A stretch of 64,000 nucleotides of DNA from Strigamia acuminata (lineage: Eukaryota > Arthropoda > Chilopoda > Geophilomorpha > Linotaeniidae): assembly GCA_949358305.1 (NCBI GenBank), contig OX442318.1, positions 1,722,501 through 1,786,500 of the forward strand, given 5' to 3'. Under the pieces are notes generated by a model. It ran no database searches. It worked only from the letters and a program-made list of their open reading frames with translations, and was not told the DNA's origin. The translations under genes and the position numbers were made by a program. Of this stretch, positions 9,755-64,000 are shown in pieces. Numbering within the stretch: position 1 is the first letter of the stretch; every line of letters begins with the position of its first letter.

Positions 9755-12700
9755 TCAGATGAAACATTCGACGAGAGAAAATACCGAAAGACCGGTCAAA
9801 ATACCAATAATTGATCCGATTTGACAGAGTAATGTAACGATGGTAATTTCTTTCAGTTCTTCGATTACTTCTCGGATGTTGCTATCAATTGAGTATCTAA
9901 CGCCTTCATAATTTATGCTTCTGTAGACCACGCCGGTTTCTTTAACTAAGGAAGGTAGGAATATTGTTTCCTCACACGGTGCTACACAGGAGCAGTCTCT
10001 ATGTGGATCTGTCTTGAATTGAATTACAAAATATTGCTCGGTTGTTTCCTTAGCCGTTATGTGATCCTCGCAATAAGGTAATGAATTGTTTTCCATAAAC
10101 GGTAATCTAACGGAATAACATGAATAGTGTCAGTGCATTTCTATTATCAAAAAATGATAAGAACAAAGTATCATATTACCTCACATAAAGCGGCATGCCA
10201 TTGGGCATGGGTTTACCAGGTTTTTAAAATTGTGCACAAAAAGTTTATACCGGCATGCCGGTAAAAGGCGAAACATGCCGGTATAAGTGAAAAAGCGGTT
10301 TTTTTTTTTTTTTTTTTTTTTTTTACTCATTTAAAGAGCCCGGATGAATAATTATGTTGGTTTTTGGGCCTAAAATTTAAGTTTTCCTAATTTTCTGCAG
10401 ATTTTTACTAAAATCTGGGTAAATGTATAGAAATTTAAAGCAATTTCTTACATTTTGAAAATCTAAAAAGGATTTTATGCTTGTTTTGGCTGAATTCTCA
10501 TTTAGAAAAATTTGTACTCACTTACACCGGCATGCCGTTAAAAACGAGGTTTATCAGCATGTTGGTATAACTCGCACTACGCCGGCATTCGGCTTAACGT
10601 GAGTTAATACGGTAATATATTAAATTACAAGAAACTCACTTGCATTCGAATGATTGCTGGTCAAGCTTTGTTTGGAAACATTTCTTTTCACATTCCTTAG
10701 CAAGTTGATTTGCTTGACAGGGACTTTTGGGAGTATTCACTCGAATGAGCTGAAAATGACAAATTTAGCAACTAGCAGTGAGTTTACTACGTACGGAAAT
10801 TCTACTGTTTGACGCCAAAGATCGATGTGACTGTATTTGGAGCTGTCTCTATAAAAAATGTGTTTGGGATGAAAAAATTGATTTTGTGGCAGAATGAAGC
10901 TCTGCAATGAATACAAAGAAATAAACATCGGAATGACGAGTGAATTTACAAAATATCTCACTGGTGTACGTTCACTGCAGGGTTGGTAAATATCCCTACC
11001 ATCCTTAGGTCGCTTCCTAGGTCCATCAATAAACCATACATGGCTTTTCTTTGGAAAATATTTCTCATCAGCTGTAAAAATTTAAAAGATGAAAGAGAAA
11101 ATATATGGCTTACGGTGATTATTTGTACCTTTTTTAATCACTCTGCACTTTCCGAATGCTGTTGACATGTATGATATATTCACAATTTTGGGCGTCAACT
11201 TGTCATTCTGGAAAAATAAATATTTGTTAAAGCAATTGCCAAGCGTAGACAAAATTGTACCACATGTTTTAGTTCTGAATGCCACTGTGATTTTACTGTA
11301 GTTGGCCAGATTGAAATTGTAGCGTAGGCTACAACGAGTATTTTGCAAGTAATATCGTAATTGAACAACAATCTGCACGGTTGTTATTGCCAGGTAATGT
11401 CACATGGCCAACTATAAGAGTGTATCTTTTTCCCATTGGGCGAGCCATTTCACTTGTGTAGTGATACCAAAAAATAGACCAAAACGCTGGCTGACATTTT
11501 GACTGCTTTCCAGACAAAACAACCAATAAAGGGAATAAACATTAATATTGAAATATAAACAGCATAAAACATTGTTTTAAGAATTGAAAAAACATTCTAT
11601 TATAAAAAATGAATCAATTTACATCATTTCAATTATTATAATAATCAAACAAATTAAAAACAGAACAGAACTACTTTTCCTGGTGGGAGTATACAGTCCA
11701 CAGTTAGGAATAATCAGGCTGGGCCAATGGGGAAAAAGTACACTCTTATAGTTGGCCAGAGTATAATAAAGTTTTGCATCCTGTGTTGGGAAAACTCACT
11801 TGAATGGTCCGGACAAAAACAACAATAATGTCAATTTTCTAATGAAGAAGTAATAAAATTAAATACTACAAATTAAAAATTAAAAATTAATTTATTGCCA
11901 GGTTCACAAGGGTTGAAAACATGAAATTCTCGCTAAAAGTATCTTAATGTCACGTACTTTAGGTAATGTGCAAGCTGCTTGTAAGTACATAAAATACGTG
12001 CACATTACGTACGTACTTACAGTGCATTGCCACTTAGCGCTAATTTCGATTTGTGAACCTGGCAATAAATTAATATTTTATTTTAATATAATTTTTAGTG
12101 TTTTCATTTATTTTTATTATAACTTTTATTAGAAAGCTGTGCACAATAATTGCCCAGAAATCTTTCAGTTTAAAATTTCGGTTGCATTGAACCAATCGAT
12201 TGACTTCTTTGTGCCATTCGACAATTTGGTGACATTAATTGTGTATGACTTGATTTGCATAAATATGTGCGATATATTAATTAAATTAATTACTGGGATC
12301 CATATTCCTGAACGTCCCACATATTTTCCACCGTTATCTTCAGAGTCCTTCCATAATTGGAGTGAATTATTTCCGAATCGAGATTTAGGATGGAGTAAAT
12401 CAAAGAGTTGGTAATTAGAGCAAACTGTACGAAGAGTTTCAGCTAACTTCAACTTAGCTGCAGTTATTTCCGATGTTTCTGGACAACTGACAATGACTGG
12501 ATAATGGATAACGTCATCTCTCAGGAGACTAACGGTTTTGACGAGTGGAAAATCCAAATAAGACTTAATTTGATTATAAACATTATAAACCGACATGATG
12601 ATCAGGATTAGGAAAAACGAGTTTTTCAGTATTTGTTGGACAGTAGACTTTTTTCGTGGTTTTTGTTTCTTTTCAAGAATTCTCTCAATTTTGTGTTTCA

Positions 12701-14779
12701 ACTTTAGATTTGCCTTTGTCGATTTCCTGAACTTCATAAAGGGAATTTTGCATCCGTGTACAAATATTTCTACGAGCGTTAAACAAGACATTCCAAAGTA
12801 GAGTCCAATGTTTCCACCAATGTTGCATAGTAAAGAAATTATGTCGTACGAAACACGTTCTTGCAATGTTCGGACATAACTATTGGCAACGAAAACATCG
12901 AGAATAGCTTTGGAACTACACAATTCTTCATAGGTTATGCTTAGTATTGTCAGTTCGCACAATTTGAGACATTTGCATTTTTTTCTCAGATTGGTTGAAA
13001 GGTCAAATTCAGAAAACATTCCATATCGCGACAAGTGAATGAAGTTTCTCAACTCTATGTATTGACGTTTTGCGAGTCGGTAATTGTCACATTTAGGTAG
13101 GTGTGTTTTTTCGTAAAAGGGATATCTAAAAAATAGTTTCACTTACAATTGGGTTTGATTGCTAAATTGAAAATGATCCATCTTACATGTGAAAATCGTA
13201 TTGTTTTACAAGTTTATTTTACTGTGTGACGTAAAACCGTGTTATTTAAAATTTAGCATTAGATAGCGCTGTTTAAAAAAACAGCGCGTAATTTCGAATA
13301 AGTGTAAATAGAATAGGAAAAATGTGCTAGAAATAAACGTATACCTGCACTTAATTGTTTTCTGGATACAAGGTTGTAAGCAGCCAATTAAATTGTCATC
13401 ACAAGGATTTCGTTTTGTGTTGATGAAGTTATACTGAAACATGAAGTTATAGATTGTGAACATGGTGTTCGTATCAGTGAAGCTTCGTTTTCTTAATTAG
13501 ACACAAAGGTTGGACTTTGTTAAAGTTTACGTTCTAACAAAACATTAATTATCGTTTTACCTTTTGCACAGTAGTTGTAGCAATGATATTAACTGATGAT
13601 AATATATGTTTTTTCGTTCCTTTTACCTCACATACCTTCTTCAATGACATTTCAACTGGTTCTTCATACGTAAGATCCGCTACTGGCGACGAATCTATTA
13701 ATACCTATTAATAAAAGCCATTTATGGTAGTAATAATTATATTATTTCATTTATTGAAAATATAATAAGTGATTTTTATTTCCACTTATTTTAATTCATT
13801 TAAGCAAACTTTAAGCATTTGCTTAATTACATTGTACTCTGTGTAGAACGGACATAGGAGCAATGCCAAAAAGTTATCCGGATGGGAGAGGGGATTTAAA
13901 CATTGCTGCGAAAAGGTTGGGACCTCCAAATTTGTCTGAACCACACAACTGTTTGGACAGCGCTATGTCCGATCCACACAGAGTACACTGTATTTGTATT
14001 TGATAATTTGTAGAATTTTAGATACACAAGTGAAAGACTTACTTCAACAGAAAAACATATTTCTGGAAATTTTAAGTTGATAGTCATCTTATTTTTGATA
14101 CTTCCAAATGGAAGTTGCAATGCTAAACAAAAGGAAACTTTGAAATAATAATCGTGCGTGTATTTTTTTTAGTTTTCTAACTTACGACTTGAAACTTGAG
14201 CAACCGGCTGTAGGAGAGTATGGTGGTTTTTAATTGTAAGATTACTGCGTGATTTTCCCTGCAAAGATATTTGCTTATTTATTGGTAAAAATAAAATGGG
14301 AAATGGAGATTTACCATTACAAAGTATGCGTCAGTTATGTAACTTTGTATACTCAAATATTTTAGAATTTCTTCTGCAGAATGCTTACGAGTATCCGTCG
14401 GGTAGTCAAATGCATCACAAGATTTTTTAATCTTTTTGTTGGTTTTAGATAGAATGTCTAGATATTCTTGCGTTGTTCGTGGGAAAATATAAACATTTGC
14501 AAAAGCTCCATGTTTGGTTTCTATGAAATATGCATCGACTGTCGTTGGTTCGCTCAAGTAATGCCAAATACATTCTCCAGTTTGGTAAACACACACTGTC
14601 AGATTCACAACGAGCAACGTAAAAATTAGAATGGACATTTTTTTTTTCTTTTTTGAAATGTTCTTCATCGATTTGGTAAATGCTGGCATCTGCGATTGCT
14701 CTGCCATCACATTGCCTACGAGGTGTCGCATTTTTCTTTCTTGACGTTGCATTACCATTGTGAAAATTTTACTCGCCAT
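9755..14779 (-). CDS. G1: two-module DEG/ENaC channel gene, complete
   Basis: Amiloride-sensitive/degenerin Na+ channel family, plasma membrane. Exons 5'-3': 14779-14315, 14258-14186, 14122-14043, 13704-13561, 13433-13345, 13125-12294, 11207-11129, 11071-10962, 10901-10806, 10749-10640, 10106-9755. They sum to 2,430 nt (809 residues). Module A has a Lys-rich block (SKKKKKMSIL) then TM1 in exon 1, Cys-rich exon 5 (RNPCDDNLIGCLQPC), and TM2 with the family signature IGLYFGMSCLTLVEIF. Module B starts in the same exon: basic linker, TM1 (LKNSFFLILIIMSVYNVYNQ), FP.IVSC strand. It continues with AFGKCRVI, NTPKSPCQANQL and TM2 IGILTGLSVFSLVE, and stops four codons later. The G-x-S filter reads GMS (A) and GLS (B). 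The His-Gly motif usual before TM1 was not found. The start was set at MASKIF by comparison with G4. The exon 6 donor (GTAATT) is weak. Confidence 0.9.
10178..10617. mobile_element. GGCATGCC-rich inverted-repeat segment in last G1 intron
   Basis: Opposed ends TCACATAAAGCGGCATGCC and TCACGTTAAGCCGAATGCC (other strand), several internal CCGGCATGCCGG palindromes and a ~32-base T run (about 10302-10333). It sits between exons 10 and 11. It is MITE-like, but the termini are imprecise and no target duplication is clear. Confidence 0.45.
11405..11758. mobile_element. MITE with TGGCCAACTATAAGAGTGTA ends (G1 intron 6)
   Basis: Inverted ends TGGCCAACTATAAGAGTGTA, perfect over 20 bases, followed by CCCATTGGGCGAGCC-type inner repeats. 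It is related to the element at 46667-47070, sharing CCCATTGGCCGAGCC and TGTGTAGTGAT. No open frame of note and no clear target duplication. Confidence 0.65.
11891..12069. mobile_element. Short MITE with TTAA target duplication (G1 intron 6)
   Basis: 179 bases with inverted ends TTTATTGCCAGGTTCACAA and TTAA on both sides (11887-11890 and 12070-12073). TTAA duplication fits piggyBac- or Kolobok-type insertion. A diverged half copy (TTTATTGCTGGTTTACAA) is seen at about 33478 inside another element. Confidence 0.65.
12294..13125 (-). CDS. G1 exon 6: TM2 of module A joined to TM1 of module B
   Basis: 832 nt, open throughout. On the minus strand it reads YPFYEKTHLPKC, CKCLKLCELT, the degenerin region VRTLQERVSYDIISLLC and the TM2 signature GLYFGMSCLTLVE. 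A basic ~50-residue stretch with HKIERILEKKQKPRKK follows, then the second TM1 FLILIIMSVYNVYNQ and DFPLVKTVSLLRDDVIHYP. No stop or convincing splice pair lies between the two membrane segments. The same arrangement recurs at 24316-25120, 43588-44401 and 61979-62792. Confidence 0.9.
13830..13990. mobile_element. TA-flanked MITE, CAGTGTACTCTGTGT family, copy 1 (G1 intron 3)
   Basis: 161 bases. The left end is CATTGTACTCTGTGTAG and the right end, on the other strand, is CAGTGTACTCTGTGTGG. Both continue to CGGACATAG and both are flanked by TA. This is a mariner/Tigger-like pattern. A related larger copy is at 33232-33645. Confidence 0.75.
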
Positions 14780-17284: not shown

Positions 17285-17384
17285 CCAGTTATCATCACAG
17301 CTTTTGAGATCTTTTTTTCTGCCACTCATTTTTGCTCTAAAATTATTAAATCCTTGAGTTGTGTGTGGGCAAAAGGTAACATAC
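17285..17384 (-). pseudogene. DEG/ENaC exon-1 fragment
   Basis: The minus strand reads YVTFCPHTTQGFNNF then RAKMSGRKKDLKSCDDN. This aligns with exon 1 of G3 (YVYFFPYTTQEFNNL, KVSGRKEDLESCEG). Only about 33 codons remain, with no TM1 before and no exon 2 after, so it is a relic of another array member between G1 and G2. Confidence 0.75.
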
Positions 17385-19471: not shown

Positions 19472-19480
19472 TTAATTAAT

Positions 19481-20570: not shown

Positions 20571-20574
20571 AAAT

Positions 20575-21769: not shown

Positions 21770-24700
21770 TTACTTTTTAGTTACACTTTCAATGCTTCTA
21801 TGAAATACAAACGAAATGTTTGTCAGAAGTGAAATAATCGAGTTACACAAAAGATTGAGAAGTTGCCGAGTGGTTTTGTTGACTTTTGAATCAAATGAAA
21901 TTTCAACAAGAGTAAATATTGAGAGACCGGTCAAAATGCCAAAAATTGATCCGATTTGACAGAGTAATTTGACAACTGAAATTGCTTCCTCTTCTGCAAT
22001 TACTTCTCGGATATTGCTGTCAATACTGTATTGAATAATAGTGCCCGCGCCAAAGGTATCGTAGTATTCTTTAATTTTTGAAGGTATGAATATTGTTTCT
22101 TCACAGCGTGCTGTACAGTTGCAGTCTTTCACGGGATCTGTGTTGAATTGAGTTTCCAAATATTGTTTGATAGTTCTCTTAGATGTTACGTGATCCTCAC
22201 AATACGGGAACAAACCGTTTTTCATAAACGGTAGTCTAACAGAGCAACAGGAATAGTGTTAATACATTGCCATTACCGTACTGAAAAATGATTTAAGCTT
22301 AGCATTGTGAAAATTTGACTTTGATGCTGTTGAAGTGCAAACTCGTACGTTAAATTAACAGAAACTCACTTGCATTCGAATGATTGCTGTTCGACTTTTG
22401 TTTTGTAACATTTCTTTTCACATTCGGTAACAAGTTGATTTGCTTGACAGGGATTTTTGGGAGTATTCACTCGAATGAGCTGAAAACAACAAATTGTCAG
22501 CAAACAGCCGTGAGTTTAGCATGTGCACAAATCCTACCGTTTGTCGCAAAATGTCGATTTGAGCACTGCGTTGTCTGTAAAAAATGTGCTTGGGATGAAA
22601 AAATTGATTTTGCGGCACAATGAAGTTCTGCAATGAATGCAAAGAAATAAACAAACGAAATAAAAAGTGAATTCACAAAATATTCACTGGTCGATGTGGA
22701 CTGCATTTGTCTAAATATATGATTCCATCGTAAAAGAATAAACTATTTTTCTTTGGAAAATAAGGTTCATCATCTGTAAACAATTGAAAGTGAAAGAAAG
22801 TATTTGAGATTTAGTAATTGATCGTACATTTCTGATATGCGGTGCATATTCCAAATGCTGTTGACACATATGATCGGTTGAAAAATGTGCGATTTCCATC
22901 GTTATGCTGGAAAAGAAATAATTTGTATAAGCAATTGCCAAAACACTTGTAGTAAGAAGCAAAGTTGAATGTGTTATACATTCCCATTGTATAATAAATT
23001 CTTCACGTTATTTAAAGTTGGAGGTTGCCTATCAACGCCAACAATTGTAATACAACAATAAACGTACTCTCGCTCCTGCTTGATATCAGCAAGTATTGTG
23101 GAACTAATAGGGTTGAATGTTTTACTCGCTTGAGTCGCAGGCTTTAGTGAGTTTGCAGCTGCGACCTCAAGATTGGCACTTTCCGAGTAAAGGGAGATTT
23201 TGTATTGAATTGTGCCATTTTGTATTGTTAAAATTTTGATTGCTTGCCAGAATAAAATCACTAGGCGCATTCAATAACTCATAAACGGTCGTTTATACCC
23301 GTTTCCATGAACTTTTAAACGAGATTCTCGTTTAAAAGCTCGTTTAAATTGCTTTAAACAGGCTAAAAATAAACGACCTAAATAGGTCGTTTAAATCTCT
23401 GTGCCAATCGGGTATTGTTGGCAGCCATCTTGAATCTCCGTTAGATCGATCGCGACGATCGGAGATATAAGTACAATTTTGCAGCTGTTCTAAATTTTTT
23501 TGTAGTGAATGACGATAATAATCATCATCATAGTAATAATTAGGGGTTGAAACAATAGAAAAATGCGAGGTAAGAAAAATCTCGAAGTAAATACCGTATG
23601 CGACTTGAAATAAATACCCGTATGCGACTTGCAGCAGGATATGATCTAGAACTTGATCTGAAATCCCAGATCAAGTTTGGCAGTTAAACAATCGTTTATT
23701 TGCATTCAAAAACGAGGCTTTTCGTCTAAAAATTCATGCGAGACGAATATTTAGACTAGTGTTGTATTCAAATGCAGATAACTAGAAAACTATGCATCCT
23801 ACAGGGGTATTATTTTGCTCAATCTAGAGCTAAATTATGTCTCTTTTGAGAATATTTTCATTTATTTTAGTGAGAGCTTTCCAGCAATGCCAAAATGCTT
23901 TCTAACAATGATGTGCTCATGAAAATTTGGATTATTCCAAACTTTCTGAACTGACTGTAATTGTGAATATTTTAAAACATGTCTAATTAACATCAAGCAA
24001 TAGTGTTTTCTCTCAAGTTGACCACAGGTTAACCAAACGATGTTTGGCTATGGACACTGGTCCTCACATTAGTACCGTGTGCCAAGAAATCATTTTATGT
24101 GAAATTTTTGTCACATCCAATCAAATGACTGCATTATGCTATGCAACAATTTGATGGCATTAGTTCTGCTTGATTTGCATTGACTGTGCTCTCGCTTTAA
24201 ACGTGATTTAATGAGGATATTGAGGAATTGGATTACGTCAAAGACCCCACAATAAGATTATTTACTTCGTACTGCTGTTACTGTTTGTGTGTGATTTAAA
24301 ATTTCAATTGCTTACGCGAAAAATCGTTACAGGGATTCCGTTTTTGGTTTGCAAGACATATCCTTCAATGTCTATAGAATCGTTCCATAGTTGAAGTGAA
24401 TTGTTTGCGAAATACGATTTAGGGTGGAGTAAATCAAACAGTTGGTAATGAGAGCAATCAGTATGAAGAGTGCGAGCTAACTCAAACTTAGCACTAAATA
24501 TTTTCTCATTATCTCGACAATTGACAATGAGTGGAAAATGGATAATGTCATCTCTTACGAGACTAACAGTTTTGACGAGAGGAAAATCAAAATAATTAGA
24601 TATTTGATTGTATACATTATAAATCGACATAAAGATCAGAATTAGGAAAACTAAGTTTTTCAGTTTCCGCTGGACATTAGATTTCTTTTGTGGTTTTTGA

Positions 24701-27700
24701 TTTTTTTCAAGAATTGTCTCAATTTTGTGTTTCAAATTGGAATTAGCCCTTGTCATTTTTCTGAACTTCACAAAGGGAATTTTGGAGCCGTAAAGAAATA
24801 TTTCAACGAGCATTAAGCAAGACATTCCGAAATAGAGTCCGACGTTCCCACCAATGTCGCACAGTAACGAGACTATGTCGTACGAAATACGTTCTTGTAA
24901 TGTTCGCACATTATTATTGACAATGATAACATCCAGAGCAGGCTCAGATGCATGGATTTCTTCGTATACAATGTTTAGTTTTGTCACTTTGCATACGTCG
25001 CTGCATTTGCAATATTTTGCAATATTAGATAAATTGATTATTTTTTTCGTAATATTGTATTGTTGTCTGAGTTGAGTTTCATTACATTTTGGTAGGTGTC
25101 CTGTTTCGTAAAACGTAGAGCTAAAATTAAAAAATATTGGTAAGTTCATTTATGTTTCATTGTTGATGAATTGAAATTTGACACATAACTTATACACACA
25201 GGTGTACAGAAACATTAACTGCTTTCAAAACATCAGTTAAAAATTGCAGTTACTTGTTACATTGCGACAATGCTGCCCGCAGGCTCAGTGACACTTGAAG
25301 CAGACGAAGCCAACTGCTTTTTGTAAGTTAGATTGAGCAGTCAAGCCGTTTAAAAATGCTATTTAGTCTCAATGACTTTTCGAATACTGCTGTAGTGAAA
25401 ATTGTGTTGTCAACTTGAATGATGACATTGACATTTTTGTTCAATGGGTGAAGGGACAATCAGTGTAGTGCTATTGCTATCTGCTGTTATCTACCAATAG
25501 AGGATGGCTAGCTACAACACGATCTACAGCAGATTGAAATGCGAAGTTTTCAAGTCATTTACTGCTAGTACACAAGCAACTTTTTTTGTTCTTTCGTCCG
25601 TGTAAAGTTTGATGGTGGATTTATAGGTATTTGCAGTTATCGCTGAAAGGCCTCCAGACTTTTAACCTTCCCATAGCCAAGCCTAGTTTCCACCATTGCT
25701 AGCTAAGGTCGGTCAAATCGGCCTTCTTTTAAAATGCTTCTGCGCATGTGCAGAATCACATTTTTCCTGGTGCAATCGCATTTTTCCTGGTAAAAGCACA
25801 TGTTTTAGGACTAATTTTAATACGCCACCTAGTGCAAACAGATGGCAAAGCAGTGTACGGCGCTCCCATTAAGGGTGTTTTATGTTATAAATATTAAATT
25901 ATCTTAATAATAATTGAAAAACTATTTGTATTTAGACATTATAAAATAAGAAAAAAAAGTTTTTGAGGAATACAACTTAACCTCATTAATTAATTATCAG
26001 AAAAAAAAGAATTACAGTGATTTTTCCCCTTCTGTAATTTTTTTGACCTACCATGGCTATGGGAAGGTTAAAATATAATGTATTTAAGTAAATATTTTTA
26101 TTTTTTACTTAAGGCCCCATAAAGTCATTAAGGAATTGTAAAAGTGGACTAATGCCGTTAGGATACTAGGCTCATTCAGATAGTGCTTGTACTATCTTGG
26201 TTGCTATGACATATCAGCGACGGTGTGTGGATAAGTGACCCAGCGCATGAGTTGCTCACGGTGTCGGGTGTATGGCTTAATAGCCTAACCCTAAGCATTA
26301 TCGTGGTGAACAAGAGAGGAGACGGAACAAGATGCTTTTCTTGTAGTTGTCCCATCTAGACTGACTGTCCAATCAAAGTTGAACCCTCTATAATCGAATT
26401 GTGCATCTTTAATTTTGCATTGGTTCCTGAAGTTGACTTCTGGAATCAACAACTCCTCCTGACAGGGTGCAGTTGTACTAATCGTCCCACTTGGGAGCTA
26501 GGTTGTGTCGTAGACAATAAATGTGCAAAGAGTGACTTCCCAGTAATCTTTAAAAAGTAAGCTTAAAAAAACCATACCTGCAAGTAATGTTTTTCATGAG
26601 ACAAGTTTGCAAGCAGCCAATTAAATTGTCATCGCAAGGATTACGTTTTGTATTGATGAAGTTATACTGAAACATTAATTTAGAGTCTGAGTATGACGAA
26701 AATTAAAATATCATGAGGAGAATTTACAGATGGTAATATTGGTTGTATTTAATTTTGCAACCATTCATGTGTAGATGTGTGTATTCGATTGAAGAGAATA
26801 AACTTGCGTGTGAAATCAAACGAACATGTCTCCATGTAATTTACTGTGACAACAATCATATTATTGGCCTGTGGACGATTTTTCATCCACATTTGGCCTG
26901 CTTTGCCAGGACAGTTCCCATTTCACTTTGTTCTTTATTTTAAGCATTTGCTCTTTCAGCCTGCATGATGCCAGAATGCATTTGTTTTGTTTACATGCAG
27001 CACTATGCGTTTTCTATACCTCTAATGTGCTGGTTTGCCACTAGAGTTTTTTGTATCTTCTCTTCTTCTCACTTCTCCATGCGTATTCAAGCTGCCAAGA
27101 TGGCAGCCTCCCTCTGTTATTTTATAGAGCTGTTTAGCTTCCATTCAAACAACTCGCCATTACTCTAAACACAATTGCTCACATTTACGCATCATTTCCA
27201 AGTTTTTTGACGCGTGATGCACAAGTGCGAGCGCACACGAGGTTTAATCCCGAGCACGCATCTTTTCCTCCTACAAATTGGCCTGCATGCTTCCACACAA
27301 ATATTTTCAGCGCATTCAAACATATCACTAGCTGCATTCCAAAAGTTGTGCTGTAAGTGTTTGAGGTGTTTGTGTTTTTGACGTGGGTATGTGACCGTGA
27401 GTACGATTAATTGATTGCGGATAAATCATTTAAAGTTTTTTTTTCCTTCCGAGTACCGTCGACTTTGCTAAAAATGGATAAGGTTAGGTCTGGGGGGGGG
27501 GATCAAGGGAGGTCTCCTTGTAAGACAGTGTAGATACTAGTTGATAGTTACAATTATTGTCACTAGGGCATAAAAAAAAAAAAAACGTTACATTTGATTA
27601 CAAATAACATACGAAATACATAAATAAAATATACAAAATATACAAAAATTGGCAAAAGGTGGACTGCGGAAGGTCGAAACTTGGGCCGCGGAAACGTTTT

Positions 27701-36612: not shown

Positions 36613-37439
36613 TGTTGTCGCGTCCTACTTGGTATAGGTTTAAATAGCGCTAACGTATAATACTTTACCTGTGATCAATTATGCAAATACCCAATGAATA
36701 CCATATGTATTTAAATGAACAAGTAATTTATTCAATAGGCTTGAAGGCCTTAAAATACACTCAGTAATAATTCTATAGTCGACGTGGTCAGCGTCGAACA
36801 AAGGATTTCTCAAGATGGCGTCGTCGGTTCCGCGTGGTCGGCGGAACAAAGGCGGCGTCTCGAGTTGTCGTTAATTCGTCACGGATTCGTCTTCACGGAC
36901 GCGGTGGAATGCTCTTTCGAGTCTTCTATCCGTGCCTGTTGTCTAGGGTTTGGTTTAGCGTCGCAGAGGCCTCGTCTAGGAACTTTGGGGTTCCCTACAA
37001 AGCACTCGGACACTTACTTCGGCGAATAATCGTCTGGGCGATTATTCTGGGTGATTTCACAAGGGCTATTCTCTTGCTTTCGCCGGAATAGCTCTCAAGT
37101 GACTTCGTGAGAGTTACAGTTTGCACTTTACTCAGCGATCCTCGATCAATCCTAACTTGTAGTTGAAGTTGGCCTGACGGTGAGGTAGTTGCTGTGTTCT
37201 TGGTGTCGTTTGTGTAAGTTCTGTCTTTTAGGCGGGAAACACAGCCTTTTATGCAGTGGGGTGAAGGGCCGGCGATCAACCAATGGGGGCTGACCACCAG
37301 CCGCTTCCTCCCCCTCGGGGCGCACACCTGCCATGGGGAGGCGGAGCCAACTCGGGGGGGGAACGACTCTTCAATCATAGTGACTCAGAAGACAAGTATC
37401 CGCCCTGGGGGGACACCTATCCATCTGGGTCACCACAAT
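36613..37439 (-). mobile_element. Probable solo LTR
   Basis: ~827 bases, GC-rich against its surroundings. On the minus strand it starts TGTGGTGACCCAGATGG and ends GACGCGACAACA (TG...CA). A TATA-like GCATAAAAGGCTGTG lies about 200 bases in, and an AATAAA near the 3' end (TTGAATAAATTACTT). No internal retroelement genes adjoin it and the flanking bases do not form a target duplication. It separates truncated G3 from R1, so a rearrangement at or through the LTR is likely. Confidence 0.5.
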
Positions 37440-37444
37440 GTGTT

Positions 37445-39180: not shown

Positions 39181-39365
39181 AATGGCTGAAACGCACGCAT
39201 ATTTTTGTCTTCCGTTTTAGCTGTTTAAAGAATTATATGCAGAACTGAATGAATTTACACTTTAAAGGTATCCGATGATTGGTGTTACATTTGATTTATT
39301 GCTTTGTTGCAATGAAACAACAAAATTTATTTTTAGTCTAGCTATATTGTTGACTATAAGGCTGT

Positions 39366-40800: not shown

Positions 40801-41451
40801 TCAAATGAAATATTCAATGAGAGAAAGTATCGAGAGACCGGTCAAAATAGCAAAAATTGATCCGATTTGACAGAGTAATTTGACAATGGAAATTACTTTC
40901 TGTTCTTCTATTACTTCCCGGATGTTGCTGTCCATAGTGAATCTTGTAATCAAGTTGCCTTCGTCGTTAATTATTGAAGATATGAATATTGTTTCTTGAC
41001 AACGTGCTGCACAGAAGCAGTCTTTCTGGGGATTTGTTTGGAATTGGGTTTCCAAATATTGTCTGGTAGTTTTCTTAGCTGTTGTGTGATCTTCGCAATA
41101 AGGCAACGAACTGTTTTCTATAAATGGTAATCTAATAGTATATCATGATTAGTGTCAGTGCATTTCAGTTACTTAAAAATGAATTAAACTTACAAGGGGA
41201 GCACATGTATAAGACACTCACAGATTGTTGTAATATTAAACGTGAAGGATTGTTATATCATGCTGAATGAGACCCTGAAATAATTTCATTCCATAAACAG
41301 CCAACAATATAAACAATGAGCTGAAAGTTTGCACTATTTTGTCTGTGTATACATCCAATCTGAGCAATCAGGCCTAGCGTATGAATACTGTAAACAACAG
41401 TTGCTAGGTAAAAAAATAGTTCCAAGATCCAAGTTGAATTTTATCATTTGA

Positions 41452-41512
<61 letters not shown>

Positions 41513-47459: not shown

Positions 47460-47492
<33 letters not shown>

Positions 47493-54244: not shown

Positions 54245-57200
54245 TCAAATGAAATATTCAATGAGAGAAAATATCGAGAGACCGGTCAAAATACCAAAAA
54301 TTGATCCGATTTGGCAGAGTAATTTGACAATGGAAATTACTTTCTGTTCTTCTATTACTTCTCGGATGTTGCTGTCCATAGTGAATATTATAAAACGGCG
54401 GTCCTCACGTTTAATTATTGAAGGAATGAATATGGTTTCTTCACAACGTGGTGCGCAGGAACAGTCTTTCTGGGGATTTGTTTTGAATTGACTCTCCAAA
54501 TATTGTCTGGTAGTTTTCTTAGCTGTTATGTGATCTTCACAATAAGGCAACGAACTGTTTTCCATAAATGGTAATCTAATAGTATATCATGATTAGTGTG
54601 ACTGCATTTCTATTATTTAAAAATGAATTAAACTTAGCAGTTTGTAAGTTAAAATCATAGTCTTTGATGCTTTGGTCGTACAAAGTAATGCTAGCAATCT
54701 CGCTCATTCTATCAGATAAACAGTTTAAGACAAAAATTTGTCACAAAATCCTATTTTTGGTCAGATTTTAATAACAGTTATGCGCGCAATCTAGCGCACT
54801 TGGGTCCATGTTGGTGGAAAAATGTAAATTTTTGGCTTAATATGTCGATTTTTGGCTAAACTCGTCGATTTGTAGATAGTTACTTGTGCTAAAACTATGC
54901 AAAACGAATGCTAAACATAGGACAAACGTGTGCTACAGCAGGGGTTCCCAAACTTTTTAGCATTGCGCCCCATTTTTAAGCAAGGCAATCTTCCGCGCCC
55001 CACTTCATCTACCGGTGCATTAAATTTTTCAAAAATGAACTACTAAAAAGAAAAAAGAAATTTTTATATAATATTGCATACAATTTTATACAATTTTACA
55101 TATACTAGTAATTTTATGAGCATGAAGGCTTATTTATTAGCCATTTATCCATAATAGAATTGAGCACCCTAACTGAAATGGATTTGAATTTGGCAGTTGT
55201 GTATTGTCTAGATAGAATAGACTCTTCTAGACGACAAGACAAGTGCACTATTCTAGGAGGAGGGCATTATTGTTAGATTTAATCTATTGTTACAAATTAT
55301 CAAAGGTTTTAACGTTATCAAATGTGTGAACGTTGCACGCACGTAATGCACGTGCAATTGAATTGTTGTAAAATTTACCGTAAAGTAAAGACGTGTTATT
55401 TTATGTTCCCGTTACAACGTGTGTTTTCATTACTTGGACATTCGAAATCTTCAAGGAACCTTAGTGGAACCTACAAGTGGTAGCAGAAGGCCGGTTTTTT
55501 CTTCGAAAAGAAGTATCCACGGCACTCAGACGACATTTTTCGAAGATTCGAGTGAGAACGAAGTGCGCACGTGACGGAATTCAAAAATCGAACGTCGTGA
55601 AAAATGGCGGATGCGATTTCGGGCAGTTCATTGAATCGGATTGATCTTCTTACACCGGAGAACTATTTCATCTGGCAGTTTAAGGTTGGAACTTTATTAG
55701 CAGCTAAAAGTTTGAAAAATATGATCACGGACCCAGCGGTGGTGGAACCGGTGGTGGGCTCTGCGGGTTACGCAGATAATCTCGTAAAATATAACACTTG
55801 GGTGAAAAACAACAACGAGGCACTCGGCATCATTATTTTGACCGTTTCGAACGAGGAAGCGACGAATTGCATGGGGAAAACCAGTGCAAAAGAAGTTTGG
55901 GATGCGTTAAAAGCGCTGTACGCCGGAACGACGGAAGAACGTCAAATCGACGCGGCGGCAGAATTAAGCGAATTACGTATGAAACACGACGAGGGAATTG
56001 ACAGCTACTTAAACAGGGCGAAGTCGATTCAATCGAGAGCCAAGGCAGTCGGACGTGACATCAAGGATCGCGAATTGATGATGTACGTGACGCGTGGTCT
56101 CGTGACAAGATTTTCCCACATTGCAAGGAATTTTCGATCGAATGCAGCCGCAACAATTGAAGAATTACGACGTGAACTCAAAATGGAGGACCAATGGTCA
56201 GCGTTTAATTCGAAAGGAGCAGCGACGGAAAGCGGGACAGTGGCGTTCAAGGCACAAGTCGGAAAAAATTCGGGAGGCAGGAAAACAAAAGGTGGGACAA
56301 AATTTGTTTGTTATGAGTGTGGCAAAAGTGGCCATATTGCCAAAGACTGTTGGCAGCGCCATCCAGAGAAGCGCCCCGCGAAAATGGCGCAACGACCAAA
56401 GGAGGCGGCAAAAATGGCGCAGGCCGAAGTAGAATTTGCAACAATACAACACGCGCTAGTGGTTGAATTGGAATCGAGTGATCACCTTGACGACTGGATT
56501 TTAGATTCAGGAGCTTCTGTGCATATGTCGAGCAAGCGCGAGCTGTTTAAAACGTTTGTTGAGATGGAGACAACAATAACCACAGCCAAGAAAGGTGTGA
56601 AGCTTCTAGCAACTGGAAAAGGAAGCATAATTTTGGATTGTCAACTCGACGGAGCAGCAACAATGAAGATTTTGCTGCAAGATGTGCTCTTTGTTCCAGA
56701 GCTAAAAGGAAATTTGCTCTCAATTCCGCGCTTGACGGCAAAGAACTACACCGTTCAATTCAGAGGAAACTGGGCGGACATTAATAGTCCAATTGGAGAG
56801 ACGATTGGAAAGGGAGCGAAGTGTGGCACCATGTATTTATTGCAACTGAAAAAAGAAGAGCAAGCGAATGCGGTTGCCACGACAACTAAACAAACCAAGG
56901 AAATATGGCATAAACGATTGTGTCATGCAAACGAACGAACAATCGACAAGATGACCAACAAGGAATTGGTTTACGGGTTGGAATACAACAATGCACCATT
57001 GGAGAAATGCACCGCGTGCATACTCGGAAAAATGACGAAGAGCCCGTACAAACGAATAAACGAGAAGCAATGGGATGATGTTTTGCAACTAATACACATG
57101 GATTTGATTGGACCATTCAAGACACCATCAATGGGAGGAAGCAGGTACGCTTTTGTAATTACTGAAGACTTCACGCGCAAGAAGTTTGCTTATTTCATGA

Positions 57201-60200
57201 GCGAGAAATCTCAAACATTTGATTTCTTCAAGTCATTTAAAGCAATGGCGGAAAAGCAAACGGGGAACAAATTAAAGCGTATTAGAAGCGACAACGGAGG
57301 CGAGTTTGTCAACGAGAATTTTAAACGTTTATGCAACGATGAAGGCATATTGCACAAGCTCACAGTGCCATTTAATGCAGCCAGCAACGGCATTGCGGAG
57401 CGTACGAATCGAACGCTCATAGAGGCGACACGGACATTACTTTTGGAATCGGGCCTACCGCAAATATTTTGGGCCGAAGCATTTTCAACGTCGATACACG
57501 TAAAAAATCGAACTTTGACGAAACCAAATGGGGATTTAGTTCCAGAAGAAATGTGGATGAAGCGCAAGCAATCAATAAAACATCTTCGAGTTTTTGGTTG
57601 TGAGGCTTTCCTGCACATCCCAGCAGAGAAGAGGCAAAAGCTTGATCAAAAAGCAAAACGCGGAATATTCGTGGGATATTCGACGGATAGAAAGGCGTTT
57701 AGGATTTACGTCCCAGCAGAAAAGAAAATACAAGAAGGTAGAACGGTGGAATTTAATGAAGAAATTCGAGGGGCGGACATCTTTAATTTGACAAAACCGG
57801 ACGAGAATAGGCGTTTTTGTCAAGAATTCGAAGACGAGGCAATTGGAGAAACAAATGCTAACGATGACAACAATGCTCAACAGCCTGCAGTGATTGTTGA
57901 AGATGAACAACAAGAGCTGCAACGAGATCAACCAGCGCAGATTGGCAGACCTCGGGGAACAACACAAGCCGTGCTCGAGCAGCGACACGCGGAACAAATG
58001 GAGCAGCGTGAGCAACAATTGCAACAAGAAGGTGTACGACGATCACAGCGCATCGCAGCACAACATGAAGCAGTAAATGCAGCGGTTGAAGCAGCGAATA
58101 TAGCATTCGAAGGCGTTGACGACTTATTTACACCGGAAACATACGAGCAAGCAATAAATTGCGACGAAAAAGAAAAATGGAAAACGGCGATGGATAGTGA
58201 AATAGACTCATTGCACGTGAACAATGTTTGGACATTGGTGAAGAAGGAAAAACAAATGACTACGATAAAGAGCAAATGGATTTATCGGATAAAACTCAAC
58301 GTGGACAGGAGTGTAAATAAATACAAGGCAAGATTGGTGGCAGTGGGGTATTCCCAGAGAGCAGGCATTGATTACACGGAAACTTTCTCGCCAGTTGTAA
58401 GAGTCGAATCACTCCGCATCATTTTATCCATGGTGGCCAAACACAAATTGATGACGCGTCAATTTGACATAAAAACAGCTTACCTGTACGGCCTGATTGA
58501 TGAAACGATTTTCATGGAGCAGCCGGAGGGATATGAACAGAAGGACTTGATTTGCAGACTTGAACGAAGCCTGTACGGCCTGAGACAATCAGGGAGATGT
58601 TGGAACGAGAGACTGGACACGGAATTGCAGAAAATTGGCCTGACACCACTAATCAACGACAGGTGTGTGTATATTTACAAGAGAAAAAATGACTTTATTA
58701 TTCTGGGGGTGTACGTAGATGACATTTTGGCAGCGTTTACTAGTCAAAAGATATTGGACCGGATTCTAAAGAAGATAAAACGAGTTTTTGAAATTGTTGA
58801 CTTGGGGGAAGTGCATTTTCTTTTGGGAATGGAAATTTCGATAATGGACAACGGAATTCTAATTGGTCAACAAAAATACATAAACGATGTTTTGAAGAGA
58901 TACGAGCTGATGGACGGAGTCACTGCAAACACACCAATGGCTACTGGACAAGACTTAGATGATTTTGAGAAATCGAAAAGAGTCGACCAGCAACTTTATC
59001 AGCAAATGATAGGATCGCTGATGCACGTGATGATAATATCACGACCGGACATATCATTCGCAATAAGTGCGTTGTCAGCATATTCAAGAGATCCGCGCCA
59101 ATTACACTTCAGAGCGGTCAAACGAGTGATGCGATATCTGAAGAAGACGATTGAGATGCGATTGTTTTTCTCAAATGAGGAGGGGAAATTACAAGGATTT
59201 GCGGACGCAAGCTGGAACGTCACCCAAGATGCAAAATCACATACAGGGATGATAGTAAAAATTGGATCAACAACAATAACGTGGAAAACCAAAAAACAAC
59301 GATTAGTCGCGATGTCATCGACAGAAAGCGAGATTTTGGCCATCTGCGAATTGCTGAAATCCATAAAATGGGCGCGAGACTTTTTGAGTGAAGTGGGCGA
59401 AGGAAGCTGTGTGCAGAGAAAAGTACCAATCTTCACGGACAGTCAACCAGCAATGCAGATTTTGTGCGGTTCGAACCAGTTTGGAAGAACTAAACATATG
59501 AACCGACACTTGATGTTCATAAGGGACGAGATAAAACTTGGCAACATTGAATTAATCCATTTACCAACAGGTGACATGATTGCTGATTTCCTGACGAAGG
59601 CGGTCGCGAAAGACAAATTCATGGAGGGACGCGACGGCGTGAGTCTGAGAGGAGAAGTTAAGATAAACGAGGACGAAGAGAAGAACGAAGACGAAGACAA
59701 ATAGTTTTAAGTTCGAAATAATATTTTATTCATGTTTTTTGTTTTTGTTTTCGAATTTCATTGAATGTTAGTTTTAGTTTTTCTTAATTCATTTTAAAAC
59801 TTATAAAAATTTGTAAGGAGGGTTTGTTAGATTTAATCTATTGTTACAAATTATCAAAGGTTTTAACGTTATCAAATGTGTGAACGTTGCACGCACGTAA
59901 TGCACGTGCAATTGAATTGTTGTAAAATTTACCGTAAAGTAAAGACGTGTTATTTTATGTTCCCGTTACAACGTGTGTTTTCATTACTTGGACATTCGAA
60001 ATCTTTGTGGAACCGAATAGGAACCAACAATTATGTCTATAAATTAGTTTGATTGTTAAAATTTTTCAAAAATAATTTTTGTGAGCGATGCGTCGCGCCC
60101 CATCAAAAATCAGCTCGCGCCTCACCGTTTGGGAAACGCTGCGCTACAGGATTAAGTAAATGGAAAAAAAAACTTTCATTTTTTTCTTTTTATATTTAAA

Positions 60201-63200
60201 AATTAGTTATTGTGGGTCACAAGTGATTCTTACAACAATCCTTCACGTTTAATATTGCAACAATCTGTGAGTGTCTCATTTATGTGCTCCCCTTGTTAGT
60301 AGTTTGTAATATTTAAAAAAGTTTAAATTATAGTCTTTGATGCTTTGGTGGTATAAAGTAATACTAGCAATCTCTCTCATCCTATAAGATAATCAGAGTT
60401 TCAGACAAAAATTTGTCACAAAATCCTATTTTTGGTCAGATTTTAATAACAGTTATGCGCGCAAACTAGCACGCTTGGGTCCAGGTTCGTGGAAAAATGT
60501 CGATTTTTTGCTTAAAATCGTCGACTTGTAGATAGTTGCTTGTGCTAAAAATATGCCAAACGAATGCTAAACATAGGACAAACGTGCGCTACAGGAATAA
60601 GTAAATGGAAAAAAAAACTTTTATTTTTTTCTTTTTATATTTAAAAATTAGTTATTGTGGGTCCAAGTGATTCTTAGTTTTTATTTCTGGTTTAAATTTC
60701 TGAATATTTTATTAGGCAATAGTAAAAATAGTAAATATTTCTACAAACTTGTGCAAACGGTTACTAACAGTATTGTGAAGTATTATTTTTAATATTAATA
60801 CTAATGTTTTTAATGCACTTAATCCGAAAAGTAGCCAGCCCTGATCTCTGTGCTAAGAATTGTCGGATGTACTTTTTGGATTTGAAATCTGTTTATCACT
60901 ATTTTCGGAGGAGAGAGAGGTCGGACAGACAGACAGACAGACAGATTCCTGATGATTAATGTATAGATGTTGAATTAATAGAAACTCACTTGCATTGGAC
61001 TGACTGCTGGTCAAGCTTCATTTTAAAACATTTCTGTTCACATTTGGTAGCACGTTCATTCGTTTGACAGGGACTTTTACGAGTGTTTATGCGAATAAGC
61101 TGAAAATAACTAATTTAGCAAATGGCACTGATATATTTTAGCGTGTGCAAAACTTCTACCGTTAGACGCGACAGATCGATTTTAAAGCCTTTCTCCTGTG
61201 AAAATAAAAGTAAAATGTGTTTGGGGTGAAAAAGTTGATTTTGCGGCAGAAAGAAGACCTGCAATGAGTAGAGAGAAATAATAATAAACATCTGAATGAA
61301 ATGTGAATTCACAAGACATCTCACTGGTTCATATTCTTTGCATTTTCGAGGAGAAATTCCACTCCAAATAATGAAAGTGTTATTCTTTGGAAAAAATGAC
61401 TCTTCAACTGTAAAAATTTATCAGTGAAAGAACGTATTTGATTTTTGGTAATTATTTCTACCTTTCTTAATCACGGTGCACATTCCAAATGGTGTTGACA
61501 AGTATGATATGTTTACAATTTTGGGATCTGCATTTTCAAACTGGAAAAGAAATCATTTGTAAAAGGCATTTCCAAGCCCAGATTACCAAATTGTGTTTTG
61601 CATTCACAACTTTTTTATGATCCTGATCAAGCACTTTTGTTTCCACTTAGGTTTAAAAAATGCTGATTTCAGGCACCTTGGAAATGAACAGTGTACCAAG
61701 CACTTATTGCAGTTATAGCACTTAAGCAGTTAATGCTAAGAAATCGTTCAAGGTAAAATTTCGATTACAGCCAATCAAATGAAATGACTGCATTCTACAA
61801 TGCAATAATTTCATGAAATTAATTTTCTGTGATTTGCATAGTGCTCTCCACTCTCCTTCCAAACACAAGTTAAGAAACAGGGTTGAATGGGGATATTAAG
61901 GAATGGGATGATGTCATAGATCACGTAATAAGATTATTTATATTAGTTGTGTGCGATTTTAAAATTTCAATTGCTTACTTGGGTAGTCTTGTCAAATCCG
62001 CCTACCACCTCCTCTCTGTACTCTCCATTAACCTCTCTAGAATCTTCCCATAATTTCAATGAATTGTTTACGTATCGAGATTTAGGGTGGAGTAAGTCAA
62101 AAAGTTGAGAATTGGAGCAATCTGTACCAAGTTCTTCTGCTAACTTCTGCTTATAGAAATTTATATTACCATGATCGAAACAAGCGACAATAAGTGGAAA
62201 CTGGATAATGTCATCTCTCACGAGACTAACAGTTTTGACGAGTCGAAAATCAAAATATGTAGCAATTTGATTGTAAACATTGTAAAACGACATGAGGATC
62301 AGAATTAGGAAAAGTGAGTTTTTCAGTTTCTGCTGCACGGACGATTTTTTTCGCGTGGTGTTCTGATGTTTTTCAAGAATTGTTTGAATTTTGTGTTTCA
62401 ACTTGGAATTTGCCTTTGTTATTTTTCTGAACTTCATAAAGGGCATTCTGCAGCCGTGAACAAATATTTGGATGATTGTTAAGCAAGACATTCCAAAATA
62501 GAGTCCAACGTTTCCACCAAGGTCGCACAGTAAAGAGATGATGTCATAGGAAACATGTTCTTGCAAGGTTCGGACATGATTATTGACAACGATAACTTCC
62601 AGAGCATACTCAGACTGATGAATATTCAATGTTTCATAGCGTATGCTTAGTTTTGTCACTTCGCATGAATCGGCACATTTGCAATGATTTCTAAGTTTTG
62701 TTGTATGGATAAATTTTGTCCACATTTGATATTGCTGTCTTAGGTAAGTGGCGTTGCATTCCGGTAGGTCTGTCGTTTCGTAAAATGGAGATCTAAAAAA
62801 TAAGTTGAGTTACTTTGTGTTGGTTGTTGACAAATTGAAAATTGATACATACACGTGGGATTCATAGGGCAATACAAATAGCTGTATTTGAAAAGTGAGT
62901 TTAAAATTTAAGTTGTTGCAGTTGCAGTTGTTTTACTGCGTAAATGGTGCGCGCATGCCCACATACTGAAAGCAGACTATCAGCCATCATTTAGATAGTC
63001 CGACACAACCTTCAGTCGAGCAATTTCAACGTTCACATGATTAAGGGACCACCAGAAAAGTATGGAGTAATTAATTGCCAAAAAAGGATGGCAAGTTACT
63101 TTATATCGGAGAACGAAGCAGACATTTTGTTTTGGGTTACTAAATGTCTATGATTCTTTTCTACCAGCAACGTTTTCTTAACTGCTCTTTAGTTGGTTAA

Positions 63201-63910
63201 AATTACACTAGGGGGTTTCATAAATGATGCGCTGAAGGCGCTGAAGCGATTATGACGATTATTCTGCTGAAGCGATTATCATGTGACTTGCGTGGGCCAA
63301 TCACATGAATAATCGCTTCAGCGTTTCCGCACTTATTTATAATCACTGAAAAAGGAGCTTTTCATGCTTAAAACATAACATAACATAACCGGAAGTCATG
63401 TGACAGTAGTATAATCAATTGAACCTAGCGTGGGTCTTCAATAATAGAGCGATTGTGATTATTGGAATAATCACTTCAGCGCTTTCAGTGCATCATTTAT
63501 GAAACCCCTTACTTACATGCCAGTTTAAATGTGCAGTTATTTTCTACACAGGCAACTTTTTTGTTATTTTGTTCGTTAATTCATTGTCTCACACTGGCAC
63601 TACAGTTACACAATTTTGCTATTCAGAGTGGAATTATTGGATTTTGCAGTTTACACTGAAAGGGTTTACGAATTCCAAAATAGAAGTTTTCTAACTAAAT
63701 ATTTTCATGAATAAATAAATAAATAAATAAAAATCCGGAAACTGGTCACAAAATTTACCACAGATTGTAAATCTTGCTCAGAGTAATTTTAGGGAATGAT
63801 GTGTTATTAAAACACGTGTACCTGCACTTAATTTTTTTCAAGAGACAAGGATGCAAGCAGCCAATTAAATTGTTGTCGCATGGATTTCGTTTTGTGTTGA
63901 CAAAGTTATA
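54245..63910 (-). CDS. G5: two-module DEG/ENaC gene, 5' exons beyond window
   Basis: Visible exons: 5 (63910-63822), 6 (62792-61979), 7 (61540-61462), 8 (61407-61325), 9 (61258-61160), 10 (61099-60990), 11 (54575-54245). All are in frame with one another in the same phases as G4. Exons 5, 6 and 10 are identical or nearly so to G4. Exons 7, 8 and 9 differ in patches, and exon 11 belongs to an older, more diverged copy (CAPRCEETIFIPS against CAARCQETIFISS). Exon 11 ends IFGILTGLSIFSLIEYFI and stop. The last intron is 6.4 kb because of nested hAT-like and Copia insertions. Splicing across it would be needed for a full protein. Exons 1-4 lie beyond base 64000. Confidence 0.88.
55271..55475 (+). 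repeat. Copia 5' LTR
   Basis: 205 bases, TGTTAG...CCTACA. Followed by TGGTAGCAGAAGG, a Copia-style primer site resembling a tRNA-Met fragment site. Flanked on the left by ATTAT (55266-55270). Confidence 0.93.
55604..59704 (+). CDS. Copia retrotransposon Gag-Pol polyprotein, intact
   Basis: 1,366 codons without interruption. Order: Gag (ENYFIWQFKVGTLLAAKS), zinc knuckle CYECGKSGHIAKDC, protease DSGASVHMS, integrase zinc finger (WHKRLCHANERTID ... CTACILGK), integrase core HMDLIGPF / SDNGGEFVNE / NGIAERTNRTLIEATRTLL. Then reverse transcriptase (FDIKTAYLYGLIDETIFMEQ, YVDDILAAF), then RNase H (GFADASWN, MSSTESEI). All catalytic motifs appear in place. Copia order (integrase before RT) is clear. 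It is inserted in antisense to G5. It may be young and autonomous; activity is not shown. Confidence 0.96.
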   Translation: MADAISGSSLNRIDLLTPENYFIWQFKVGTLLAAKSLKNMITDPAVVEPVVGSAGYADNLVKYNTWVKNNNEALGIIILTVSNEEATNCMGKTSAKEVWDALKALYAGTTEERQIDAAAELSELRMKHDEGIDSYLNRAKSIQSRAKAVGRDIKDRELMMYVTRGLVTRFSHIARNFRSNAAATIEELRRELKMEDQWSAFNSKGAATESGTVAFKAQVGKNSGGRKTKGGTKFVCYECGKSGHIAKDCWQRHPEKRPAKMAQRPKEAAKMAQAEVEFATIQHALVVELESSDHLDDWILDSGASVHMSSKRELFKTFVEMETTITTAKKGVKLLATGKGSIILDCQLDGAATMKILLQDVLFVPELKGNLLSIPRLTAKNYTVQFRGNWADINSPIGETIGKGAKCGTMYLLQLKKEEQANAVATTTKQTKEIWHKRLCHANERTIDKMTNKELVYGLEYNNAPLEKCTACILGKMTKSPYKRINEKQWDDVLQLIHMDLIGPFKTPSMGGSRYAFVITEDFTRKKFAYFMSEKSQTFDFFKSFKAMAEKQTGNKLKRIRSDNGGEFVNENFKRLCNDEGILHKLTVPFNAASNGIAERTNRTLIEATRTLLLESGLPQIFWAEAFSTSIHVKNRTLTKPNGDLVPEEMWMKRKQSIKHLRVFGCEAFLHIPAEKRQKLDQKAKRGIFVGYSTDRKAFRIYVPAEKKIQEGRTVEFNEEIRGADIFNLTKPDENRRFCQEFEDEAIGETNANDDNNAQQPAVIVEDEQQELQRDQPAQIGRPRGTTQAVLEQRHAEQMEQREQQLQQEGVRRSQRIAAQHEAVNAAVEAANIAFEGVDDLFTPETYEQAINCDEKEKWKTAMDSEIDSLHVNNVWTLVKKEKQMTTIKSKWIYRIKLNVDRSVNKYKARLVAVGYSQRAGIDYTETFSPVVRVESLRIILSMVAKHKLMTRQFDIKTAYLYGLIDETIFMEQPEGYEQKDLICRLERSLYGLRQSGRCWNERLDTELQKIGLTPLINDRCVYIYKRKNDFIILGVYVDDILAAFTSQKILDRILKKIKRVFEIVDLGEVHFLLGMEISIMDNGILIGQQKYINDVLKRYELMDGVTANTPMATGQDLDDFEKSKRVDQQLYQQMIGSLMHVMIISRPDISFAISALSAYSRDPRQLHFRAVKRVMRYLKKTIEMRLFFSNEEGKLQGFADASWNVTQDAKSHTGMIVKIGSTTITWKTKKQRLVAMSSTESEILAICELLKSIKWARDFLSEVGEGSCVQRKVPIFTDSQPAMQILCGSNQFGRTKHMNRHLMFIRDEIKLGNIELIHLPTGDMIADFLTKAVAKDKFMEGRDGVSLRGEVKINEDEEKNEDEDK
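59825..60029 (+). repeat. Copia 3' LTR
   Basis: 205 bases, TGTTAG...CCAACA. The first ~180 bases equal the 5' LTR; eight differences fall in the last 24. Confidence 0.93.
61979..62792 (-). CDS. G5 exon 6: TM2-A / TM1-B fusion exon
   Basis: Copy of G4 exon 6, open over 814 nt, encoding the same two membrane segments and linker, including the Gln (IIQIF) in place of the usual Glu after the filter. Confidence 0.9.
63211..63508. mobile_element. Duplicated copy of the GGGGTTTCAT MITE
   Basis: Copy of 44820-45117 carried by the segmental duplication, with the same ends and flanks. Confidence 0.7.
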
Positions 63911-64000
63911 CTGAAAGAAATTAATATTGTGAATGTTACTCAAATTAAAATATCTGAAGGAGAATTTACACATGATAAGATTAGTTGTATTTAATTTCAC

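Follow-up and report, generated by a model that had tools for sequence, protein, structure and literature searches.

A cluster of Strigamia acuminata genes predicted to encode two DEG/ENaC modules in one polypeptide

A channel gene cluster on the minus strand

The window analyzed is a stretch of 64,000 nucleotides from the centipede Strigamia acuminata (GenBank assembly GCA_949358305.1, contig OX442318.1, positions 1,722,501 to 1,786,500 of the forward strand), and all positions given here are counted from its first letter. Its minus strand carries a cluster of genes related to the DEG/ENaC family of trimeric, amiloride-blocked cation channels, comprising four open copies (G1, G2, G4, and G5) and one broken copy (G3). 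We rebuilt the gene models from exon borders that recur between copies; the resulting features are listed in Table 1. G1, G2, and G4 have 11 exons each, with coding lengths of 2,430, 2,487, and 2,421 nt that exactly reproduce the exon sums noted in the first-pass annotation of this DNA, and they encode proteins of 809, 828, and 806 residues, respectively. In these three genes, and also in the partial copy G5, the introns are of the GT-AG type; G1, G2, and G4 each have a single stop, which is terminal. For G5, exons 5 to 11 are in the window and amount to 1,605 nt, exons 1 to 4 being located beyond base 64000. G3 is composed of pieces of the first module (module A) only and loses its reading frame near the second transmembrane segment (TM2); no second module (module B) was found for it within the window.

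The copies also differ at their C-terminal ends. Nine residues follow the GxS motif of module B in G1 and G4 and 49 in G2, so that the G2 tail is 40 residues longer. G2 alone (21770-21900) is without the stop that closes G1, G4, and G5 just past TM2-B, and in the other copies the same frame is closed by stops. Intron 10 of G5 contains a copia-type retrotransposon (55270-60030) in antisense orientation to the gene. This element has a single open gag-pol frame of 1,367 residues (55601-59704, plus strand) and is flanked by 207-bp direct repeats that are 96% alike.

Table 1. Positions of the channel genes, their exons, and the G1 linker in the window
Feature	Position	Strand	Basis
G1, whole gene	9755..14779	-	gene model
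G1 exon 1 (N-terminus, TM1-A)	14315..14779	-	gene model
G1 exon 2	14186..14258	-	gene model
G1 exon 3	14043..14122	-	gene model
G1 exon 4	13561..13704	-	gene model
G1 exon 5 (module A thumb cysteines)	13345..13433	-	gene model
G1 exon 6, fused (module A end including TM2-A, then linker, TM1-B, and first part of the module B ectodomain)	12294..13125	-	
G1 linker, residues 408-449, between TM2-A and TM1-B, inside exon 6	12630..12755	-	from exon borders
G1 exon 7	11129..11207	-	gene model
G1 exon 8	10962..11071	-	gene model
G1 exon 9	10806..10901	-	gene model
G1 exon 10 (module B thumb cysteines)	10640..10749	-	gene model
G1 exon 11 (TM2-B and stop)	9755..10106	-	gene model
G2, whole gene	21770..30422	-	gene model
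G2 exon 1	29961..30422	-	gene model
G2 exon 2	29835..29907	-	gene model
G2 exon 3	29687..29766	-	gene model
G2 exon 4	28631..28777	-	gene model
G2 exon 5	26578..26666	-	gene model
G2 exon 6, fused exon	24316..25120	-	gene model
G2 exon 7	22828..22906	-	gene model
G2 exon 8	22688..22773	-	gene model
G2 exon 9	22538..22627	-	gene model
G2 exon 10	22370..22479	-	gene model
G2 exon 11 (C-terminal extension absent from G1, G4, G5)	21770..22235	-	gene model
G3, broken copy	37430..39216	-	module A pieces
G4, whole gene	40801..48560	-	gene model
G4 exon 1	48030..48560	-	gene model
G4 exon 2	47901..47973	-	gene model
G4 exon 3	47760..47836	-	gene model
G4 exon 4	47176..47310	-	gene model
G4 exon 5	45431..45519	-	gene model
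G4 exon 6, fused exon	43588..44401	-	gene model
G4 exon 7	42992..43070	-	gene model
G4 exon 8	42855..42937	-	gene model
G4 exon 9	42690..42788	-	gene model
G4 exon 10	42520..42629	-	gene model
G4 exon 11	40801..41131	-	gene model
G5, part in window	54245..63910	-	gene model
G5 exon 5	63822..63910	-	gene model
G5 exon 6, fused exon (protein sequence identical to G4 exon 6)	61979..62792	-	gene model
G5 exon 7	61462..61540	-	gene model
G5 exon 8	61325..61407	-	gene model
G5 exon 9	61160..61258	-	gene model
G5 exon 10	60990..61099	-	gene model
G5 exon 11 (separated from exon 10 by the copia-holding intron)	54245..54575	-	gene model

Module architecture and relation to known channels

The spliced products of G1, G2, and G4 encode the unit TM1-ectodomain-TM2 twice. 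The first-pass annotation had described the order GLYFGMSC (TM2-A), YNVYNQ (TM1-B), and ILTGLS (TM2-B), with TM1-B about 50 residues after TM2-A in the same uninterrupted exon. We found this order in G1, G2, G4, and G5; TM2-A and TM1-B are in one stop-free exon in all four open copies (G5 being partial), and the distance from the GxS motif to the start of TM1-B is 55, 55, and 56 residues in G1, G2, and G4, respectively. The two matches to the Pfam family ASC (PF00858) that it expected were also obtained. At a curated cut-off of 23.6 bits, module A of G1 scored 44.6 bits (E = 1.3e-11) and module B 31.9 bits (E = 9.9e-8), and the score for the whole of G4 was 64.9 bits. In each module the match is limited to the thumb, CxC..C, and TM2, which correspond to the C-terminal third of the profile, since the divergence of TM1-A, TM1-B, and the finger regions is too great for a Pfam match; the reading frame of G1 exon 1, which contains TM1-A, matched no Pfam family when searched alone. 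The NCBIfam models for ENaC and deg-1 scored 31.7 and 23.8 bits against G4, far under their cut-offs of 428 and 598. A comparison of module A with module B by HHalign (a single pair) gave a probability of 97.6% and an E value of 3.7e-12 over 136 columns, and 24 to 28% of the aligned residues in the part from thumb to TM2 are identical. A hydropathy scan (19-residue window, threshold of 1.6) detected all four transmembrane segments in G2 only, plus a peak in the G2 tail, and two of the four (TM1-A and TM2-B) in G1 and G4.

We then inspected the hallmarks of the DEG/ENaC family, which include conserved thumb cysteines and a CxC..C motif before TM2, an FPxxxxC strand after TM1, and a His-Gly motif in the cytosolic N-terminus that is typical but not obligatory. 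(i) Eight thumb cysteines in each module align with those of the centipede channel PDPNaC1. (ii) The GxS filter reads GMS in module A and GLS in module B of G1, G2, G4, and G5. (iii) The strand following TM1 is (F/Y)P(L/V)IVxC in module B and F(P/A)NVYI, without the cysteine, in module A, this half of the modules having no significant profile match. (iv) The His-Gly motif is absent before TM1-A in G1, G2, and G4; between the modules, HG occurs only adjoining TM2-A in G1 and G4, is absent there in G2, and in no case adjoins TM1-B. An AlphaFold2 model of G1 exon 6, built with three sequences, had a mean pLDDT of 32 and thus offers no structural support. DEG/ENaC proteins have one unit per chain, whereas the gene models have two, and we therefore consider these proteins a variant and not standard members; the layout of G1, G2, G4, and G5 is a variant form of this known family.

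Profile searches against solved structures retrieved two centipede channels, PDPNaC1 and BRTNaC1 (broad-range thermal receptor 1, from the same centipede as PDPNaC1; PDB entries 8ymr, 8ymw, and 8ymx), which belong to a group of channels gated by heat or by proton release. Module A matched PDPNaC1 (E = 9e-14) and BRTNaC1 (E = 1.8e-11), followed by ASIC2 (1.9e-5), and module B matched three BRTNaC1 chains (best E = 2.2e-11), with nothing else below 0.1. The identity between the G2 modules and these two channels is 23 to 31%, the value for G2 module A and PDPNaC1 being 31% over 138 columns. Module A and PDPNaC1 also share the thumb cysteine pattern and a similar pore helix. A further stretch of BRTNaC1 aligns with TM1-A, with YLSEP in common, and is not significant alone. 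Both known channels have a single module, as opposed to the two found here: passages of PMC12714832 describe PDPNaC1 as a protein of 421 residues, encoded by nine exons and forming a homotrimer by cryo-EM, and passages of PMC12804983 describe BRTNaC1 as a trimeric channel with a 431-residue chain. The gate residues of PDPNaC1 named in the former include Asp372 and Gly375. By alignment to the residues numbered there, Asp372 corresponds to Asp or Asn in module A and to Gln in module B, Gly375 to Gly and Ser, and Ser376 to Asn and Ile, respectively; a ring shared by A and B would therefore contain unlike pore residues from the two modules.

When G1 and the G1-G2-G4 alignment were used as queries, protein searches yielded 7,415 and 7,489 candidates, respectively, none of which was kept (E limits of 1e-3 and 10). 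Divergent relatives may be missed by this search, because it needs exact five-residue words in the first 500 residues. The copia polyprotein, used as a control, produced 249 matches; among the 120 listed, the named ones were mostly from plants, with one from Aedes albopictus and one from Cordylochernes scorpioides, so the protein set holds some arthropod proteins. In viral and prokaryote contigs, where animal genes are not expected, 78 and 67 pattern matches were found, and none was confirmed by tblastn. Among the matches listed from open-licence PubMed Central papers, no title referred to a natural two-module DEG/ENaC chain. Some predicted proteins in domain databases carry two ASC domains, and the layout may thus exist there in the form of unvalidated predictions.

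Linker, gene origin, and assembly of the chain

In all four open copies, TM2-A and TM1-B are connected by a linker of 42 to 43 residues in a single open frame of exon 6. We compared 42 shared linker codons pairwise and obtained dN values of 0.151 (G1-G2), 0.154 (G1-G4), and 0.164 (G2-G4), which are below those of the modules (0.238 to 0.302). The corresponding linker dN/dS ratios were 0.29, 0.14, and 0.38, compared to 0.47 to 0.58 for the modules. Fisher tests on rounded linker site counts gave p values of 0.014 (G1-G2), 1.6e-5 (G1-G4), and 0.038 (G2-G4). In a neutral simulation, the linker stayed open with equally few amino acid changes in 2.3% of the runs for G1-G2 and 0.015% for G1-G4; the 7.9% obtained for G2-G4 is not significant. 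The three pairs share branches, and these values are thus not independent of one another.

The phases of introns 1 to 5, in module A, are 0,1,0,0,2 and are repeated in the same order by introns 6 to 10, in module B, in G1, G2, and G4. Under assumed phase frequencies of 0.45/0.30/0.25, an ordered match of five phases has a chance of 0.0056. Introns 4 and 9 are followed by a shared Asn-Thr as the fifth and sixth codons downstream, and introns 5 and 10, both of phase 2, split the codon after a shared Cys. For the other three intron pairs the flanking sequence is too divergent to align, so that only order and phase can be compared. Because of the matching phases, exon 6 looks like a last exon fused to a first exon, and the plain reading of this intron pattern would be a six-exon, one-module gene form behind both halves. 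An in-frame fusion of two such genes, either copies of one gene or two members of the family, would have removed the stop from the last exon of the upstream gene and the start from the first exon of the downstream gene, leaving 11 exons, and the fused gene would then have multiplied into the tandem cluster. A quartet of A, B, PDPNaC1, and BRTNaC1 singled out no topology (AU p values of 0.41, 0.66, and 0.11), and the duplication of one gene is not distinguishable from the fusion of two different genes by this test. We read G1, G2, and G4 as genes that appear intact and would encode a naturally occurring tandem dimer of DEG/ENaC subunits.

The same exons could instead give rise to two separate single-module proteins if exon 6 or its surroundings provided a promoter and a poly(A) site inside the gene, and the shared exon would then reflect a crowded gene pair. 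Every copy has at least one linker methionine that might start module B, located in a PFM motif in G1, G4, and G5, but the position is occupied by Val in G2, whose own Met lies further on, so that none is common to G1, G2, and G4; the only Met common to all is within TM1-B, and a protein started from it would lack the first half of this segment. Moreover, none of the open copies has a stop at the end of module A, all three pairs give a linker dN/dS below 1, and exon 6 of G1, G2, and G4 is free of AATAAA and ATTAAA. One or the other of these hexamers, which were listed for exons, is present in exons 1, 2, and 7 of G1, exons 3, 4, and 11 of G2, and exons 4 and 9 of G4. We consider the production of two proteins in this manner improbable. 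We likewise give little probability to cleavage of the translated fused chain within its cytosolic linker, which would release two ordinary subunits in a 1:1 ratio. Lysine and arginine are abundant in the linker, and lower bands with engineered ASIC concatemers are mentioned in passages of PMC4529235, but the sequence contains no 2A motif, and the linker protein sequence evolves more slowly than either module, which we judge a better fit to an interacting or helical segment. That the cluster consists of decaying or nonfunctional copies is very improbable in our view, even though G3 is broken, a copia element is inserted in G5 intron 10, and the dN/dS of the modules is high for an ion channel: G1, G2, and G4 have kept frames of 806 to 828 codons open although their synonymous divergence is near 0.5, and every splice site in them is GT-AG.

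Three further candidates were rejected. Alternative splicing inside exon 6 between the modules was discarded, since simple patterns revealed neither a GTRAG donor in G1, G2, and G4 nor an acceptor-like site; a 2A-type break, since the proteins contain no NPGP motif; and an assembly error joining two genes, since the same join is present in four copies, three of which have diverged to a dS near 0.5.

Taken together, the continuous exon in four copies, the slow linker, the lack of a common start in the linker, and the matching phases uphold, at the level of sequence, the central proposal of the first-pass annotation that one polypeptide contains two DEG/ENaC modules. We infer with good confidence that G1, G2, and G4 each make one real fused two-module protein. 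Both ends of a DEG/ENaC module are cytosolic, and a cytosolic linker would therefore keep both ectodomains outside; the protein would cross the membrane four times, with both termini as well as the linker on the cytosolic side. Such a chain is odd, because the channels of this family are normally built from three separate subunits. The general view is that DEG/ENaC channels are trimeric and built of single-module subunits; a minority position holds that ASIC1a forms tetramers (passages of PMC4529235).

Our tentative proposal for the assembly, to which we give somewhat less than even chances, is that A and B of one chain would lie next to each other in the same channel and that the ring would be completed by a third member, either a single-module subunit or a module from a second chain. 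If the fusion is kept, three chains might alternatively form a ring of A modules and a ring of B modules, resulting in a double-barreled channel. The identity between A and B in the part from thumb to TM2 (24 to 28%) is like that between the G2 modules and PDPNaC1 or BRTNaC1, so pairing of each module with its own kind is conceivable; however, the 42- to 43-residue linker would have to span two trimers in all three chains, judging from the usual channel dimensions, and we regard the double-barreled form as rather unlikely. Passages of PMC4529235 report that engineered ASIC1a chains of two, three, and four subunits gave typical currents in oocytes, and a two-subunit chain can therefore be functional. 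The unusual stoichiometry that the first-pass annotation expected of a fused chain may thus not be obligatory, provided that the channel tolerates spare modules. In the engineered concatemers covered by passages of PMC4529235 and PMC10329638, subunits are joined head to tail as they are here, but those chains are man-made and composed of identical or closely related subunits, with added linkers of 19 residues (PMC10329638), whereas the present chain has a natural linker and modules that are only 24 to 28% identical in the aligned part.

The more specific form of this idea is a natural A-B concatemer in which (i) the fused chain must recruit a third subunit, from another gene or as a module of a second chain, (ii) the position of A beside B is fixed by evolution, (iii) what the channel senses is determined by the identity of the third subunit, and (iv) the slow linker is a working part of the gate that replaces the missing His-Gly motif. 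We put it forward as a possible but rather doubtful scheme. Natural repeats of pore units in one chain are known from K2P, two-pore, and four-repeat voltage-gated channels; their repeats divide evenly into a fourfold ring, whereas here a two-unit chain occurs in a threefold family. A natural two-module chain would amount to evolution's own experiment on subunit order and number; it would open the count of chains in each pore to direct testing and reveal how a fusion can persist though two does not divide three. The fast change of the modules (dN/dS of about 0.5) and the cluster layout would suit peripheral sensory receptors.

Neighboring elements and recent changes in the cluster

The window contained no RNA families or tRNA genes. 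Exons of a fatty acid synthase are located at 216-6587 on the plus strand and cover pseudo-KR, KR, ACP, and thioesterase domains. A tandem array of a 21-bp unit, with 17 copies, is found at 20569-20924, and the long open frames over it on both strands (20524-21076) are probably spurious. The segment 31320-32105 is a retroelement fragment with RNase H-like domains of reverse transcriptase. Intron 3 of G2 contains an interstitial array of the pentamer GGTTA (29394-29527); TTAGG is the telomere unit of arthropods.

G4 and G5 share a block of 2,285 bp (43325-45609 and 61716-64000) with 99.96% identity, introns included. Outside this block, the neighboring 1,487 bp are 96.9% identical, and the stretch of the last exon is 91% identical. 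The pattern is suggestive of a gene conversion event or a mosaic of duplications, recent in either case, but it may also stem from an error of assembly.
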